In this document: positions 7,938 to 61,383 of the stretch, piece after piece | Layout of the letters: every line of letters begins with the position of its first letter | Numbering within the stretch: the stretch's first letter is position 1 | Assembly (NCBI GenBank): GCA_003567685.1 | Contig: PWYW01000018.1 | Location: 62,001 to 126,000 of the forward strand | DNA: 64,000 bases | Source: Gammaproteobacteria bacterium | GTDB lineage: Bacteria > Pseudomonadota > Gammaproteobacteria > Xanthomonadales > Wenzhouxiangellaceae | Direction: 5' to 3' | Notes under the pieces: generated by a model | The model's input: the letters and a program-made list of their open reading frames with translations, nothing else | Databases searched by the model: none | What the model was told of the DNA's origin: nothing | Translations under genes and position numbers: made by a program

Positions 7938-9227
7938 TTAGCCAATGACCGGCGTCTGGTCGGTCGATGAGAGCCAGTGACTCAAGGCCTGATCGAGTCT
8001 GTCGGCAGCGACCAGTTCCGGCTCGCGATCTCCGCGCATCGGCTTGATCTGCACTTGGCCGGCTTGCCACTCGGCCTCGCCCAGAACCAGGGCCAATCCC
8101 GCGCCGCTGCGATCAGCTCGCTTGAATTGGGCCTTGAAACTGCCGCCAGCCAAGTCCATCGTCAGCAGCAGATCGGGCAAACGTTCACGGAGTCTTTCGG
8201 CCAGCGCCAGCGTGAAGCCCAACGGCGCCTGGCTGACCAGATAGACCTGTGGGACTTGCCGGTGTTCCGTGCCGTCGGCTTCAAGCAAGCTGAGGAGTCG
8301 CTCTGCTCCCATGGCGAAACCGATTCCCGGGGTCGGTTTTCCGCCTTGCATGGCAACCAGATCGTCGTAGCGTCCTCCGGCACACACGGTGCCCTGAGCC
8401 CCCAAATCGTCGGTGATCCACTCAAATACCGTGCGGCAATAATAGTCCAGCCCACGGACTAGCCCGGGATTGACCGTGTACGCCACTCCCAATTGATCGA
8501 GCAAGTCGCAGACAGTCGCGAAATGGTCACGGGCCTCGTCACCCAGGTGGTCGCCCAGCCGAGGGGCGTCGGCCATGATCGCCTGGGTCTGAGGGTTTTT
8601 GCTGTCGAAAATCCTGAGCGGGTTGGCATCAAGACGACGCTGGCTGTCCTCATCCAATTGGGTCCGGAAGGGTTCAAGGTAATTGATCAGTCGCTCGCGA
8701 TACTGCAGGCGATCCTGCTTGTCACCCAGGGTGTTGATTTCCAGTCGGACCCTGTCGGACAAGCCCAGCAGCCGCCACAGTCGCTCGACCACGAGAATCA
8801 GTTCCACGTCAGTGCCTGGCTGAGGCAAACCGAAAACCTCGGCGCCGAATTGGTGGAATTGCCGTTGTCGACCCTTCTGGGGGCGTTCGTGGCGAAACAT
8901 TGGCCCGCGATACCAGGCCTTCAGGCCCGGCGTGTGCAGCAGGCCGTGCTGAATGGCCGAGCGCACCACGCCCGCGGTTCCTTCCGGTCTGAGACTCAGT
9001 AAGTCCCCGTTCCGGTCATTGAAGGCATACATTTCCTTCTCGACCACGTCGGTGGTTTGCCCCATCGCTCGCGTGAAAACCTCGGCCTGTTCGAGAATCG
9101 GGGTCCGGATTTCCTCGAACCCATAGGCCGTGAACAGCTGCGCAATGATGGATTCGAGCCACTGCCAGGAAGGAGAGTGTTCCGGCAGGATGTCGTGCAT
9201 TCCGCGAATGGACTGGATCTTTTTCAT
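7938..9227 (-). CDS. hisS: Histidyl-tRNA synthetase
   Basis: This class II aminoacyl-tRNA synthetase charges tRNA-His. The 429-residue protein starts with the classical MKKIQSIRGMHDILP, carries motif 2 around RPEGTAGVVR and the FRHERPQKGR segment, and has the HisRS-specific LVRGLDYYCRTVFEW stretch and GGRYD. The C-terminal anticodon-binding domain begins near residue 330. It lies between rodZ and yfgM. In E. coli ispG would sit just upstream; here only a 105-bp spacer with a strong hairpin is found. Confidence 0.97.
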   Translation of the reverse strand: MKKIQSIRGMHDILPEHSPSWQWLESIIAQLFTAYGFEEIRTPILEQAEVFTRAMGQTTDVVEKEMYAFNDRNGDLLSLRPEGTAGVVRSAIQHGLLHTPGLKAWYRGPMFRHERPQKGRQRQFHQFGAEVFGLPQPGTDVELILVVERLWRLLGLSDRVRLEINTLGDKQDRLQYRERLINYLEPFRTQLDEDSQRRLDANPLRIFDSKNPQTQAIMADAPRLGDHLGDEARDHFATVCDLLDQLGVAYTVNPGLVRGLDYYCRTVFEWITDDLGAQGTVCAGGRYDDLVAMQGGKPTPGIGFAMGAERLLSLLEADGTEHRQVPQVYLVSQAPLGFTLALAERLRERLPDLLLTMDLAGGSFKAQFKRADRSGAGLALVLGEAEWQAGQVQIKPMRGDREPELVAADRLDQALSHWLSSTDQTPVIG

Positions 9228-9241
9228 TGTTCAAATCCCAC

Positions 9242-9266
9242 GAAAGCCCGCCTGTGGCGGGCTTTC
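9242..9266. terminator. Perfect 11-bp hairpin between rodZ and hisS
   Basis: Positions 9242-9252 (GAAAGCCCGCC) pair perfectly with 9256-9266 around a TGT loop. The stem carries A's on one side and T's on the other, the symmetry of bidirectional intrinsic terminators, although no long U-tract follows on either strand. On the minus strand it lies after the rodZ stop and 15 bp before the hisS start codon, so it could separate the ndk-rodZ transcript from hisS or act in the hisS leader. Confidence 0.65.
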
Positions 9267-9332
9267 TCAATGGTGTGTCAAACCACCAGGCGTTCGCGAT
9301 CGAATCGAAAACGTCCAGCGTCCAGGCTGGCC

Positions 9333-10301
9333 TTAATCGTTGCTGACGACGTTTCCGTCCTCGTCCAGCCTGAGTTGGACAAGCCCGCTGCGATTTTGGC
9401 CTTCGAAGGAAACCGTCTGTTCATTGAGGGTGAGTTCAACGGCATTGGCTCGACCCAACAAAAGTCTGAAGGGAGGTTCTGCCAGGTAGCTGCGCTCGGC
9501 GCCCGCTCTGAGCAAGTCGAATTCAAGCCGGCGATCATTGGCATCGTAAACCTCGACCCAGCTATCGTCGCTTAATCTCAACATGAGTTGGCGGCGAGGA
9601 TCGATGGTCTCGGGCTCGAGCAAGGCCACGCCCTCGAATGCTGGCTCGACCGCTGGGGCCGTCGCCTCTTCGAGTCGGGTATCAACCAGTGGGCGTACCG
9701 GCAGTGCGGATGCGGAAGTGCGACGTGGTGAATCCTCGTCCGTCGTCTCGGTTGCCGAATCGCCACCAATCGCCCGGCTCAGTCGAGTCAATCCATCAAT
9801 TCTTTGTGTCTGCCCGGGCTGAGAAGCATCGGTTGCTGCCGTCTGGCCATAGTCCTGGTCGAGTATGCGCGAACCTGTCTGGACATAGAACAGTACGAGT
9901 GGAATGACGACTACCGCGGTGGCTAGCGCATAACTGGCCCGCTTGAAGTGACGCTCCAGTCGACTGGCACGGCGATCGACCGGCAACACCTCCTTGAGAT
10001 CAGGCGGCGGCTCCTGACTGAGCAGTGCCAGCAATGGAACTGGGTCCAGGCCGAGCAATCGTGCGTAATTGCTGACGTAGCCGCGTCGATAAATCGGTGC
10101 CACATGATCAATGCGACCCTCTTCAATTGACGACACCACGCTGACAGCGAGGTGGAGACTTCGGGCCACCTGATCACGCTCGAGCCCCCTGTTCAGCCTG
10201 GCTTGCGCCAATTGCTGGCCAATCTCGGCGTAATGGTTGATGGGCGTTCGGTCTTTGTTTTGCTGATCGGCGTTGCTGGACGCCTGTTGTTGATCAGTCA
10301 T
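9333..10301 (-). CDS. rodZ: Cytoskeletal/transmembrane regulator RodZ
   Basis: RodZ links MreB filaments to the cell-wall elongation machinery. The 322-residue protein has a cytoplasmic Xre-type helix-turn-helix domain (about 24-90, including YRRGYVSNYARLLGLDP), a basic juxtamembrane segment, one membrane helix (about 123-140), a low-complexity Ser/Thr-rich periplasmic linker, and a C-terminal beta-rich domain of the DUF4115 type (about 225-320). Its 5' end overlaps pilF by 8 nt. Length matches the family. Confidence 0.93.
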   Translation of the reverse strand: MTDQQQASSNADQQNKDRTPINHYAEIGQQLAQARLNRGLERDQVARSLHLAVSVVSSIEEGRIDHVAPIYRRGYVSNYARLLGLDPVPLLALLSQEPPPDLKEVLPVDRRASRLERHFKRASYALATAVVVIPLVLFYVQTGSRILDQDYGQTAATDASQPGQTQRIDGLTRLSRAIGGDSATETTDEDSPRRTSASALPVRPLVDTRLEEATAPAVEPAFEGVALLEPETIDPRRQLMLRLSDDSWVEVYDANDRRLEFDLLRAGAERSYLAEPPFRLLLGRANAVELTLNEQTVSFEGQNRSGLVQLRLDEDGNVVSND

Positions 10302-32670: not shown

Positions 32671-33660
32671 ATGGCTGAAACCCTTGCGCGACTGCCGGCC
32701 GAATGGAGTCGGCAGAAAGCGACGCTGCTTGCTTTCCCATCAGCCAGTGGAGATTGGCGTGGCCAATTGGCCGGTATTCGTCAGGAATATCGTCGACTGA
32801 TCGATGCTATCAGCCGTTTCCAGTCCGTCATCCTGCTCACACCGCCCGAAGAGCCGGAGCTTTCCGGTGAGTGGTCCGGGCAGGAAAGCGTCGTGTGTCT
32901 ACCCGTCAGCATCAATGACACCTGGTGCCGGGACTACGGGCCAATTTGTGTTCACCGGGACCAGGAAACCCAGGCACTGGATTTCCATTTCGATGGCTGG
33001 GGAGGCAAGTACGACGCAAGCCTCGATAATCGAGTGAATCGCACGCTGGCCGATCATCCGGCGTTTTCCAACTATCGTTTCAAATCGCTGTCGTTCGAAC
33101 TGGAAGGCGGAGCGATCGAGTCTGATGGCATAGGCAGCTTGCTGGTCAACTGGCACTGCCTGCAAACCCGGCACGCCGAACTCGACCGTCAGGAGCTTGA
33201 ACGGGAGCTTTGCCGGTTATTGGCCGTTGACCGGGTGATTGGCATCGATGTGCCGCCGACCGAGGGCGATGATACCGATGGCCATATCGATACGCTGGCC
33301 CGCTTCGTTGATGAGCAAACGATTGCCTGGCAGCGCCAGGCCGACGCTGAGCGAAGCGAACGGATCGAAACCCAGCTGCAGGCGCTTCGCCGGCCGGACG
33401 GCACACGCTATCGACTGATCGCTTTGCCACAGCCGACGGGCTTTGACCCCGGACTTCCGGCCAATTACGCCAATTTTCTGTTCGTCAACGGCGGTTGCCT
33501 GGTACCAGCCTACGATGTTCCTGCCGACGAAGAGGCAAGGATGATGCTTGCTCAAGCGTTGCCCGAGCATGAAGTCATCAGCGTGTCCTCGGCAATACTG
33601 ATCAGCCAGTTCGGTAGTATTCACTGCGCCACAATGCACATCCCGGAGTCCCATTCATGA
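32671..33660 (+). CDS. aguA: Agmatine deiminase
   Basis: The enzyme hydrolyses agmatine to N-carbamoylputrescine and ammonia. The 329-residue protein is of the PAD/AguA fold: TWCRDYGP near residue 90, LEGGAIE, GDDTDGHIDTLARF with the catalytic His, and the nucleophile Cys319 in SIHCATMH close to the C-terminus. A good AAAGG site precedes the ATG. The stop overlaps the start of aguB (ATGA), as expected for a two-step pathway from agmatine to putrescine. Confidence 0.93.
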   Translation: MAETLARLPAEWSRQKATLLAFPSASGDWRGQLAGIRQEYRRLIDAISRFQSVILLTPPEEPELSGEWSGQESVVCLPVSINDTWCRDYGPICVHRDQETQALDFHFDGWGGKYDASLDNRVNRTLADHPAFSNYRFKSLSFELEGGAIESDGIGSLLVNWHCLQTRHAELDRQELERELCRLLAVDRVIGIDVPPTEGDDTDGHIDTLARFVDEQTIAWQRQADAERSERIETQLQALRRPDGTRYRLIALPQPTGFDPGLPANYANFLFVNGGCLVPAYDVPADEEARMMLAQALPEHEVISVSSAILISQFGSIHCATMHIPESHS

Positions 33661-34541
33661 GCGCGTACCGACGCGTCGCGGTGGTCCAGCACGCCATGTG
33701 CGAAGACCTCGACCGAAATTACGATGCCACCCTGGCTGGCATCGAGAGAGCTGCCCGCCAGGGCGCGGAACTGATTCTGCTGCCCGAGCTCCACGCCAGC
33801 GAGTACTTCTGCAAATACCAGGATCCTGACCTGTTTGACCTGGCCGAGCCGCTCGACGGCCCGACCCGACGGATGCTCTCGGACGCCGCTCGCCAGTTCG
33901 AGGTCGTGATCGTCGGCAGTCTGTTCGAACACCGCGCGCCTGGCCTGGCTCACAACACGGCCGTGGTGATGGAGCGTGACGGCAGCCTGGCCGGTGTTTA
34001 TCGCAAGATGCACATCCCGGATGACCCAGGCTACAACGAGAAATTCTATTTCACCCCCGGCGACCTGGGCTTCGAGCCCATCGACACCAGCGCCGGCCGA
34101 CTGGGCGTGCTGGTGTGCTGGGACCAGTGGTACCCCGAGGCTGCGCGCTTGATGGCGCTGGCCGGCGCCGAGATTCTGCTCTACCCGACGGCAATCGGCA
34201 AAGACCCTAACGACGACGAAGACGAGCAGCTGCGTCAGCTTGATGCCTGGCGCACCATTCAGCGCGGTCATGCCGTGGCCAATGGATTACCGGTGCTGGC
34301 CTGCAACCGGGTGGGTTTCGAGCCCGATCGCTCAGGTGGTGGCTGCGATGCCGAGTTCTGGGGCCACAGCCTGATCATCGGTCCGCAAGGTGAGATCATC
34401 GATGAAGCCGGCACTGACGCCGAAGTGCTGATTGCCGATCTGGATATGGCGCGCGGTGAACAGGTGCGACGGCTGTGGCCGTTCCTGAGAGACCGCCGAA
34501 TCGACGCCTATCAGGATCTTCTCAAGCGCTGGCGGAAATAG
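33657..34541 (+). CDS. aguB: N-carbamoylputrescine amidohydrolase
   Basis: This nitrilase-superfamily enzyme releases putrescine, ammonia and CO2 from N-carbamoylputrescine. The 294-residue protein shows the Glu-Lys-Cys triad: Glu44 in LLPELHAS, Lys117 in YRKMHIPDD and Cys154 in VLVCWDQWYPE. The motifs and the overlap with aguA make the substrate assignment strong. No arginine decarboxylase gene is in the window, so agmatine must come from elsewhere. Confidence 0.94.
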   Translation: MSAYRRVAVVQHAMCEDLDRNYDATLAGIERAARQGAELILLPELHASEYFCKYQDPDLFDLAEPLDGPTRRMLSDAARQFEVVIVGSLFEHRAPGLAHNTAVVMERDGSLAGVYRKMHIPDDPGYNEKFYFTPGDLGFEPIDTSAGRLGVLVCWDQWYPEAARLMALAGAEILLYPTAIGKDPNDDEDEQLRQLDAWRTIQRGHAVANGLPVLACNRVGFEPDRSGGGCDAEFWGHSLIIGPQGEIIDEAGTDAEVLIADLDMARGEQVRRLWPFLRDRRIDAYQDLLKRWRK

Positions 34542-58869: not shown

Positions 58870-59880
58870 TCAACCCAGCCGCCGAATGCCGACCGCTTCG
58901 CGCAGCTCGGCAATAAACGGACGGCTTAGCTCGCGCGCGCGCTCGGCGCCCACAGTCAGCTCCTTTTCAACCTTGGCCGGGTCACTGATCAGCGCCTCGT
59001 AGCGCTCACGCGGCACCGTCAATTCGGCGTTGATCAGCTCGAACAATTGTTGCTTGACCTCGCCCCAGGCGATGCCGTCGGCAAAGGCCTGGCGCATGGC
59101 CGCGCGCTGTTCCGGGCTGGCGAAAGCCGCGTAAACCGAGAACACCGCAGCCGAATCCGGGTCCTTGGGCTCGCCCGGTTCCTGGGAATTGGTCTTGATT
59201 TTCATGATCGCCTTGCGCAGCTTCTTCTCCGGCAGCCACAGCGGGATGGTGTTGTCGTAGCTTTTCGACATCTTGCGCCCATCAGTGCCCGGCAGGGTCG
59301 CCACGTGCTCGTCCACCTCGGCTTCCGGCAGCTCGAAAAGTTCACCGTAACGATGATTGAAGCGCTGGGCAATATCGCGCGCCATTTCCAGGTGCTGAAC
59401 CTGATCCTTGCCCACCGGCACACGCTTGGCGTTGAACATCAGGATATCGGCGGCCATCAATACCGGGTAGGAATACAGGCCCATGGTCACGCCGAAGTCC
59501 GGGTCTTCTTCGGCTTTCAGGTTGGCGTCCACGGAAGCCTTGTAGGCATGGGCCCGGTTCATCAAGCCCTTGGCGGTTACGCAGGTCAGCAGCCAGGTCA
59601 GCTCGGGAATCTCGGGCACATCAGACTGTCGATAAAACACCGAGCGTGAAGTATCCAGGCCCAACGCCAGCCAGGTTGCCGCAATTTCCAGGGTAGACCG
59701 CTGCACGCGCTCAGGGTCTTCGCATTTGACCAAGGCGTGGTAGTCGGCCAGGAAATAGAACGAATCGATATCGTCCGCGCGCGAGGCGGCAATGGCCGGT
59801 TTGATGGCGCCGACGTAGTTGCCCAGGGGCGGCGTGCCGGTGGTGGTAATCCCGGTCAGAACGCGCTGTTTCTTGCTCAT
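58870..59880 (-). CDS. trpS: Tryptophanyl-tRNA synthetase
   Basis: TrpRS charges tRNA-Trp. The 336-residue class I enzyme has the signature [16 protein letters not shown] (the HIGH region in its TrpRS form) and KMSKS in [10 protein letters not shown] near residue 206. [19 protein letters not shown] is the Trp/Tyr-type substrate block. It is the first gene of a minus-strand operon with the FAH hydrolase and two crcB copies. Confidence 0.97.
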
Positions 59881-60012: not shown

Positions 60013-61128
60013 GTGGAACTGATCGAAGCCGACTACTTGGCAAGCCAACCAGAACGCCCTCCCGAGCAGTTGGCCGAGGCCATTGCGCGGGAGCAGAGCC
60101 TGGAAATCCTGGACGCGCTGATTCCCGACCACATCCGGCGTGATTTTCTTGGCCGGGTCCTGTCGGTTGAAGCAATCCGTGACGATCAATGGCGACTACG
60201 CATTGGCTACCCTGCCCACCTTGCTTCGGCACAGATCGGCCAGTTGATGCATCTGCTCTATGGCAACGTATCGTTTTACCCGCGCATTCGGCTGGTGGAT
60301 GTGCGCCTGCCTGCCTCATTGCTCGACGCCCTGCCCGGCCCGCTGGGCGGAATTCCGGAAATACGGCGGCTTGTCGGCAGCCAGAACCGTGCCCTGTTGC
60401 TGACCGTGCTCAAGCCCCGCGGCTCCTCGCCGGAAACCCTGGCCAGACTGGCCGAGGCGTTTGCCCTGGGCGGTGGCGATATTCTCAAGGATGACCAAAA
60501 CCTGGTCGAGACCGATCCGAACCAGTTTCGCCAACGCCTTGCCTGTTGCGCCCAAGCGATTGAACGGGCGGCCCAGACGACCGGTCGGCGCTGCCTGTAC
60601 CTGCCTCATGTAGCCGGCAGCGGGCAGCACCTGCAAAAACAGCTCGACATCGTGGCCGAACTTGGCCTTCATGGCATGGTGCTGTGCCCCTGGTTCATGG
60701 GCATGGAAACGGCTGCGGAGGCCGCGCGTTCCCGTCAGCTGCTATGGTTGGCTCACCCCGCCGGTGCCGGCGTATGGACCGAAACGCCCGATCGCGGCGC
60801 GAGCGCCGAGTTGATCTTCGGGCAGTTGCCCCGACTGGCCGGTGCCGACTTGAGCATCTACCCGGGCAGCGGCGGCCGAATCACTGCCCAACAGGTCGAT
60901 GATCCCGGGATTATTCGTGCCCTGACTCAGCCCCTGGGCCATCACCTGCCCACACTGCCCTGCAGCGGCGGCGGCAAGACCCTGGCACAAGTGCCTGAAC
61001 TGGCGTCCCGACTAGGACCGGATCTGGCCGTGGTTGTCGGCGGCGATCTGCTTTTGCACGGCGATGGGATTCAGGCGGTGGTGTCGTCCACGATCAGCAA
61101 GCTGATCAACGGCAACCCGGGCTCATGA
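60013..61128 (+). CDS. RuBisCO-like protein (form IV-type, orphan)
   Basis: The 371-residue protein aligns with the RuBisCO large-subunit fold: YPAHL, LLYGNVSFYPRIRLVD, GPLGGIPEIRRLVG, then LKPRGSSP with Lys134 (Lys175 of spinach), and GGGDILKDDQNL. There Lys159 and Asp161 match the carbamylated Lys201 and Asp203, but Glu204 is Gln162. His248 (LAHPAG) matches His294; CSGGGKT and VVVGGDLLLHGDG form the phosphate sites. The loop-6 Lys334 is absent. It is therefore unlikely to fix CO2. Known RLPs act in methionine salvage or sugar-acid catabolism, but none of those genes are nearby. Starts with GTG; divergent from trpS. Specific function unknown. Confidence 0.85.
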   Translation: MELIEADYLASQPERPPEQLAEAIAREQSLEILDALIPDHIRRDFLGRVLSVEAIRDDQWRLRIGYPAHLASAQIGQLMHLLYGNVSFYPRIRLVDVRLPASLLDALPGPLGGIPEIRRLVGSQNRALLLTVLKPRGSSPETLARLAEAFALGGGDILKDDQNLVETDPNQFRQRLACCAQAIERAAQTTGRRCLYLPHVAGSGQHLQKQLDIVAELGLHGMVLCPWFMGMETAAEAARSRQLLWLAHPAGAGVWTETPDRGASAELIFGQLPRLAGADLSIYPGSGGRITAQQVDDPGIIRALTQPLGHHLPTLPCSGGGKTLAQVPELASRLGPDLAVVVGGDLLLHGDGIQAVVSSTISKLINGNPGS

Positions 61129-61197: not shown

Positions 61198-61383
61198 ATG
61201 CTGCCCAGCATCTGGACGATCATTGGCCAGACCTTCACGCTTCTATTCCTGCTTGGTTTCCTGGCCTTGATCATTGCCATACCGATCTGGTTGTTTCGAA
61301 TCAGCAGGAACACCCAGCGTCTTGTTGATCTCAAAGAGCAAGAGAGGCAAGACCAAAACCCCACTCCACCTGGCGGGAAGTAG
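61198..61383 (+). CDS. Small single-helix membrane protein
   Basis: The 61-residue protein has one long hydrophobic segment (about 6-33) followed by a charged, coiled-coil-like tail (RISRNTQRLVDLKEQERQDQ). A GGAAGG site lies eight bases before the ATG. It follows the RuBisCO-like gene by 69 bp and might be cotranscribed. I recognise no family; the topology resembles small membrane scaffold or toxin-like peptides, but nothing specific supports either. Confidence 0.55.
   Translation: MLPSIWTIIGQTFTLLFLLGFLALIIAIPIWLFRISRNTQRLVDLKEQERQDQNPTPPGGK

Follow-up and report, generated by a model that had tools for sequence, protein, structure and literature searches.

The RuBisCO-like protein (RLP) encoded in the window, by which we mean the whole 64,000-nucleotide stretch of Wenzhouxiangella DNA analysed here, is read, with a probability of about 0.6, as a DeepYkr-type, MtnA-linked sugar-phosphate isomerase of methylthioadenosine (MTA) breakdown whose downstream step has been lost or replaced. 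What the analysis establishes is the fold, the clade and the residue pattern, the absence of the cupin (with its loss as the likeliest history), the lack of partner genes and the link with mtnA; the substrate, the reaction and the role of the metal-site residues are predicted by analogy with related enzymes. The case is built from the placement of the protein in its superfamily, the partners carried by its closest relatives, and the pathway genes that accompany it across the genus.

The gene, its fold and its metal site

The host genome (G000; genus Wenzhouxiangella) measures 2.74 Mb and is 99.6% complete. The features on which the argument draws are given below, the residue equivalences being read from an alignment with RuBisCO 6hun and given in RuBisCO numbering (Lys175, Lys201, Asp202, Asp203, Glu204, His294, Lys334).

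58870..59880, minus strand: trpS (PF00579), divergent neighbour of the RLP gene
60013..61128, plus strand: RLP, 371 aa, GTG start, N-terminal domain and barrel, without a cupin tail
60412..60414, plus strand: K134, equivalent of RuBisCO Lys175; Lys in 124 of the 124 Gln/His-type rows tabulated
60487..60498, plus strand: K159-D160-D161-Q162, equivalents of Lys201-Asp202-Asp203-Glu204; Q162 is the Glu-to-Gln change
60607..60609, plus strand: H199, just past barrel strand 3
60754..60756, plus strand: H248, equivalent of RuBisCO His294; His in 124 of the 124 Gln/His-type rows tabulated
61198..61383, plus strand: 61-codon open reading frame 3' of the RLP gene, a small membrane protein as judged by eye

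The product matches PF00016 (E 6.6e-21), and its AlphaFold model, made with 53 aligned sequences (mean pLDDT 95.3, pTM 0.92), comprises the N-terminal domain and the whole barrel. Foldseek places 3qfw_B first among the matches of this model (TM 0.87), VIA-align gives 3qfw a Z of 43.8 over 348 residues, with 2zvi, 2oem and 3qfw tied at Z 43.8-44.3, and 3qfw is also the best PDB match by sequence (E 3e-56, the next being 5e-35). A sequence-only reading of this DNA had described a complete RLP barrel with equivalents of Lys175 and Lys201, Gln162 in place of Glu204 and no loop-6 Lys334, and the model and the 6hun alignment together bear out these points; RuBisCO itself was rejected for the two missing residues, Glu204 and Lys334. 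The length of 371 residues, to which the same reading had drawn attention, is correct but not unusual, the 3qfw chain having 378.

Locally the gene is the orphan it was said to be: its neighbours in the window are trpS, the small open reading frame and a DUF4236 gene, with no pathway cluster among them, and the methionine-salvage genes of the genome sit elsewhere. The housekeeping gene trpS is no pathway partner of the RLP, and a cupin remnant, sought throughout the 64-kb window, was not found. The idea that Gln162 betrays a foreign gene was rejected, because the residue is common to 28 family sequences, the composition is ordinary (GC and GC3 resemble those of three neighbours), and trpS-homologous reading frames stand just upstream of the RLP gene in 17 of the 18 Wenzhouxiangellaceae loci compared. 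Elsewhere in the window (32671-34538) lie agmatine deiminase-like and N-carbamoylputrescine amidase-like genes (putrescine synthesis), below model cut-offs.

Clade placement and the residue at position 204

RLP matches at E 1e-3 or better occur in 37 of the 61 genomes searched, a set made up of the window's own genome and its relatives (37 of the family, including 30 of the genus, of which 15 are at least 90% complete, and 24 from other families of the order). The RLP is carried by 25 of the 30 genus genomes, being cut by a contig end in G009 and G022 and reduced to a fragment in G012. A class-level search at 1e-30 gave matches in 17 of 274 genomes, one of them G000, and the nearest named relatives among the matches listed, at 58-64% identity, belong to Wenzhouxiangella, Wenzhouxiangellaceae or gammaproteobacterial bins. 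PLSDB holds 358 plasmid records with RLP- or RuBisCO-like sequences, most often from Rhizobium and Sinorhizobium and below 60% identity to the query. The open-licence literature yielded no paper naming both 'RuBisCO-like protein' and Wenzhouxiangella.

For phylogeny, 125 rows were reduced by the 21 that were more than 97% identical to a kept row, L030 and shorter fragments were left out, and the resulting 104 relatives were joined to 8 reference stretches in a quick tree of 112 rows. The 103 Gln/His rows and 3qfw form one group (SH-aLRT 99), which stands apart from MtnW (2zvi, 2oek, 4nas), from the Photo RLPs (2qyg, 1tel, L046), from RuBisCO 6hun, and from 3nwr, which on its long branch is the sole representative of other RLPs. 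A Photo RLP was rejected on this placement outside the 2qyg/1tel clade, as was OiaX (3-oxo-isoapionate-4-phosphate decarboxylase) on a score of 74.3 bits against an NCBIfam cut-off of 700. To our knowledge, no enzyme of the Gln subclade defined below has been assayed.

The functional assignment of the larger group hinges on 3qfw. According to a passage of PMC5893883, R. palustris has two RLPs, RLP1 (DeepYkr) and RLP2 (Photo), and RLP1 and its R. rubrum counterpart isomerise 5-methylthioribulose-1-phosphate. The record titles give 3qfw as an R. palustris RLP and 2qyg as rlp2, and because the organism has two RLPs and 2qyg bears that title, 3qfw is taken to be of the RLP1 type (RPA2169 type), that is, presumably a DeepYkr 5-methylthioribulose-1-phosphate 1,3-isomerase. 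By its grouping with 3qfw the window RLP would then be a member of the DeepYkr-type clade. It resembles the DeepYkr proteins (R. rubrum Rru_A1998, R. palustris RLP1 and, on the assignment just made, 3qfw) in clade, length, fold, the residues K134/K159/D161/H248, the loss of Glu204 and the tie to mtnA; it differs from 3qfw in having Gln rather than His at position 204 and His rather than Asn at position 199, and from the DeepYkr systems in that no cupin of the Rru_A2000 kind was detected in its genome and neither DXR nor a DXS-like match in its lineage, apart from the cases named below. The earlier suggestion of an uncharacterised RLP clade survives for the Gln subclade, for which we found no biochemical report, but not for the whole group, which through 3qfw reaches what is probably a characterised clade; 3qfw, too, is without Glu204 and has His at the site.

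Gln162 is present in all 28 family rows that cover the site (window, L002-L028). Among 45 rows fetched regardless of residue 204 (window, L002-L029, L031-L046) the count is Gln 33, His 11 and Glu 1, the sole Glu row being L046, placed by the tree with 2qyg, a Photo RLP. Over all 125 rows the count is Gln 82, His 42 and Glu 1, of which 80 (L157-L236, the best 80 of at least 551 confirmed relatives) were preselected for Gln or His by a scan with the pattern [GVI]D[ILV][IVL]KDD[QH][NG] only. Throughout the clade, as far as it was sampled, Glu204 is lost, and Gln characterises a 59-row subclade (SH-aLRT 91), with two Gln rows, L217 and L224, outside it; Gln162 is conserved in the family, as a check on the sequence-only reading was to establish, but the loss of Glu204 is not peculiar to it, since 3qfw has His.

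That reading had suggested that Gln162 could go with a changed metal chemistry and an uncharacterised RLP function, a proposal that we consider improbable. It gains from the frequency of Gln in the unselected rows (33/45) and from column 199, the next best separator of the two types, where among deduplicated, partly preselected rows 52 of 61 Gln-type sequences have His and 37 of 42 His-type sequences have Asn, as if the histidine had shifted strand; as a structural hypothesis, it may have relocated from strand 2 to strand 3, at the strand end in both cases. The swap between His/Asn and Gln/His at positions 162 and 199, however striking its counts, has no statistical support, the tree containing just 2-3 independent pairs. 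Against the proposal, 3qfw and the His-type rows have themselves lost Glu204, and the barrel mouth shows no enrichment of the 20 residues specific to Wenzhouxiangella (8/20 versus 36/117, p 0.44). The clade as a whole may have a changed metal chemistry.

Cupin fusions and split transketolases beside the RLP

In four of the five RLP-bearing family genomes outside the genus (G031, G032, G035, G036; the exception is G030) the RLP is extended at its C-terminus by a further domain, to 482-549 aa. A profile (A2) of 22 rows, comprising the fused C-terminal domain and cupins adjoining other RLPs, matches 3jzv ('uncharacterized protein Rru_A2000') at E 5.8e-41, and Rru_A2000 is given in a passage of PMC4958253 as the cupin-like MTXu-5P sulfurylase of R. 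rubrum. RLP-cupin fusions, in Wenzhouxiangellaceae and in other phyla, are the closest relatives of the window RLP; they bear the Rru_A2000-like cupin at the C-terminus, which the window RLP lacks, and they share its Gln in 23 of 42 deduplicated, partly preselected fused rows. The bins that carry fusions include Gammaproteobacteria, Acidobacteria, Planctomycetota, Nitrospirae, KSB1, FCPU426, Hydrogenedentes and others, and we found no report of such a fusion in the open-licence literature.

Among the best 80 of at least 551 loci, 38 have a fusion, 4 a cupin in the locus, 7 a split transketolase and 31 none of these, the last being 15 of the 17 Wenzhouxiangellaceae loci (L157-L173) and 16 others, some of them near contig ends. 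Taken separately, L174-L236 (63 of the best 80 loci, one of them G031 again) comprise 36 fusions, 4 more loci with a cupin, and 16 in which both cupin and split transketolase are lacking; Wenzhouxiangella is thus not alone in missing a partner. In an Elusimicrobia locus where no cupin was seen, a gene of the TauE/SafE sulfite-exporter family (L188:7137-7904) directly precedes a Gln-type RLP. A cupin, fused or in the locus, accompanies 28 of 42 His-type and 24 of 61 Gln-type rows (23 of the latter being fusions; the rows are partly preselected), and Gln alone therefore marks no different pathway.

The tree orders these arrangements. The 24 unfused rows of the genus and G030 form a clade (SH-aLRT 100) whose sister is the fused L025 (99); next outward come the fused L026, L027 and L028 together with the unfused L199 (99 at the joining node), and a careful 36-row tree without L199 has the same nesting with a bootstrap of 100. 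Forcing the fused rows into one clade without Wenzhouxiangella costs 109.8 log units (AU p 6.7e-9), in a test of 36 hand-picked rows out of 104 and of a group named after the first tree had been inspected. The most economical reading of these sequences is that one loss of the cupin would have preceded Wenzhouxiangella, several separate gains of the fusion being conceivable in its place.

Nor is the lost domain found elsewhere in the genus: over the 61 genomes the cupin profile gives the four fused proteins 151-191 bits, against a maximum of 33.8 in the genus and 28.3 in G000, and comparably low scores occur in genomes without an RLP (for example G023 and G048), so that no recognisable methylsulfurylase was found in the genus. 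Neither the genes 3' of the RLP in W. sediminis (a thioesterase, a carboxymuconolactone-decarboxylase-family protein, an AhpC-family protein and a LysR regulator) nor the conserved reading frames beside mtnA (PpiB, LpxH and fumarase, by eye) look like a dedicated substitute for the cupin. The Gln form that has neither cupin nor DXR is a variant of a known family, and a report of it was not found in the open-licence literature.

A second kind of partner is seen in L222, L223, L228, L235, L221, L219, L236, L041 and L045, whose RLPs lie near split transketolase subunit genes (only the C subunit in L041) and belong to one His-type subclade spread over Lokiarchaeota, Firmicutes, Nitrospiria, Chloroflexi and some gammaproteobacteria. 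They belong to the same large RLP clade as the window protein and differ from it in being His-type and in having two transketolase-like subunit genes in place of the cupin; the L222 locus adds mtnK and mtnA, and L223 has mtnA with an APH-family kinase where L222 has mtnK. A thiamine enzyme may replace the cupin step in these loci, and we found no report of such an RLP-transketolase operon in the open-licence literature. As the cupin's replacement in Wenzhouxiangella the split transketolase was rejected, its C subunit being matched in the genus only on one 9.8 kb contig, G017:C120. This contig also bears a second RLP (L296, 32% identical to the window RLP), a second mtnA and, by eye, apparent sugar ABC transporter genes, and it may be a contaminant.

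MtnA, the missing MEP route and the proposed reaction

The window's genome encodes MtnA (G000:C1:15997-16959, 410.2 bits against a cut-off of 279) and is among the 25 of 30 genus genomes with mtnA, G028 having only a piece below the cut-off. Across the genus, RLP and mtnA occur together in 24 genomes, RLP only in 1, mtnA only in 1 and neither in 4 (Fisher p 8.8e-4); among genomes at least 90% complete the counts are 13/0/0/2 (p 0.0095), both tests ignoring kinship. The RLP-only genome has a fragment with a stop, and the mtnA-only genome is 65% complete. This speaks in part against the sequence-only reading, in that mtnA, elsewhere in the genome, tracks the RLP and the relatives are RLP-cupin fusions. 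The tie is also supported by loci that hold both RLP and mtnA, 7 of the best 80 of at least 551. On the other side, mtnA occurs without an RLP match in G033, G034 and 14 of 24 genomes of the order's other families. An MTAP-family protein (G000:C35; E 3.6e-68) scores 229.7 bits, under the cut-off of 274.85, and could be a relative such as methylthioinosine phosphorylase.

MtnB, MtnC and MtnD reach their cut-offs together in exactly 5 of the 30 genus genomes (G000, G006, G016, G022, G026), which fall in one six-row RLP subclade (SH-aLRT 97) whose sixth member is G028 (83% complete); G033 and G034 have MtnBCD and mtnA with no RLP match. In the window's genome the RLP thus stands beside the full canonical route, which draws on the same product of MtnA. 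In 19 of the 24 RLP+mtnA genomes, many of them incomplete, none of the three is over its cut-off, and the same holds for 8 of the 13 with a completeness of 90% or more; nor does any class II aldolase in the 19 match the MtnB model at 1e-3. With no MtnBCD found there, the RLP is the only recognisable enzyme for the MtnA product.

These counts bear on the notion that the RLP is an MtnW (YkrW)-type enolase of the canonical salvage pathway, with which it shares superfamily, fold and a place in MTA salvage, and whose model is its best NCBIfam match by E-value. MtnW requires MtnB upstream, and the 19 genomes, many of them incomplete, have no MtnB match to make its substrate, whereas MtnC is present wherever MtnB is. 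The bit scores fall far under the NCBIfam equivalog cut-offs (167 against 409, and 123 against 513.6), and 2zvi, 2oek and 4nas keep Glu204 (KDDE) in a separate clade; we rejected this enolase as very improbable. A relic losing its function after the loss of the cupin is only slightly easier to credit: G012 has no mtnA match and, in a genome 84% complete, only an RLP fragment with an in-frame stop (G012:C168:7919-8320), and the window's genome has MtnBCD as an alternative, but K134, K159, D160, D161 and H248 are all kept in 24 rows (window, L002-L023, L024).

The usual destination of the pathway is also missing. Long DXS-like proteins, presumably DXS, occur in 21 of 24 genomes of the order's other families and in none of the 37 family genomes at E 1e-15 (the sole match, in G017, is the split transketolase), as judged with a split-transketolase query rather than a DXS model; DXR, too, is found in 21 of those 24 genomes, in 1 of 37 in the family (G035) and in none of the 30 of the genus. 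In the window rodZ (9336-10301, below the model cut-off) is followed directly by hisS (7941-9227), between which in E. coli ispG sits, and the absence of ispG at 9227-9336 is in line with loss of the MEP route. A mevalonate pathway is reported for Wenzhouxiangella in a passage of PMC7691419; with this route and no DXR or DXS-like match, any 1-deoxyxylulose-5-phosphate (DXP) made in the genus would lack a known path into isoprenoids. G035 (L025, L288; 91% complete) combines an RLP-cupin fusion with DXR and no DXS-like match, and is a candidate for DXP made by the shunt. G031, G032 and G036 have the fusion with neither DXS-like match nor DXR found, and a shunt there would be cut off from isoprenoid synthesis.

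In the mechanism that we favour, MTA would be split to 5-methylthioribose-1-phosphate, which MtnA would convert to 5-methylthioribulose-1-phosphate; the RLP would take this product, pull a proton by way of an enediolate held on the metal at K159/D161, and carry out a 1,3-isomerisation towards 1-methylthioxylulose-5-phosphate, as the R. rubrum RLP and R. palustris RLP1 do. In the relatives the fused or adjacent cupin would then strip off the methylthio group to give DXP. In Wenzhouxiangella, where neither the cupin nor DXR nor a DXS-like protein was found, the classical MTA-isoprenoid shunt cannot operate as described; the product may go to another next enzyme, or the RLP may serve a related substrate.

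One such substrate suggests a different outcome. 5'-Deoxyadenosine is a waste product of radical-SAM enzymes, and its salvage by the same phosphorylase and MtnA would yield 5-deoxyribulose-1-phosphate, which the RLP might isomerise directly to DXP. The reaction would be an exact analogue of the known 1,3-isomerisation; with no methylthio group to remove, no cupin would be needed, and DXP would be available for thiamin or pyridoxal phosphate without DXS. This would explain together why RLP and MtnA are kept and why the cupin, a DXS-like match and DXR are absent, and a passage of PMC6302742 places the enzyme of the step, which we read as MtnA, in 5'-deoxyadenosine catabolism of M. jannaschii as well. 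We nevertheless hold it unlikely. Its extension, that the Wenzhouxiangella RLP is a stand-alone DXP maker for vitamins B1 or B6 while isoprenoids come from mevalonate, and that the RLPs of the clade combine with interchangeable enzymes for the next step (a cupin, fused or adjacent, a split transketolase, or none that is recognised), is equally doubtful.

For the family, these results mean that the RLP of the MTA-isoprenoid shunt and the enzyme that follows it are often joined in a single polypeptide, as in the 38 fusions counted above. For the genus, a lineage in which no DXR or DXS was found keeps the RLP and not the cupin, which overturns the assumption that RLPs of this type work for isoprenoid synthesis, and the 19 of 30 Wenzhouxiangella genomes in which the RLP is the only recognised user of the MtnA product offer a clean test bed. 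For enzymology, the clade also supplies naturally occurring replacements of Glu by His and by Gln at the RuBisCO metal site. The Gln has turned out less special than first thought, but the break in the pathway poses a genuine puzzle that experiments can address.
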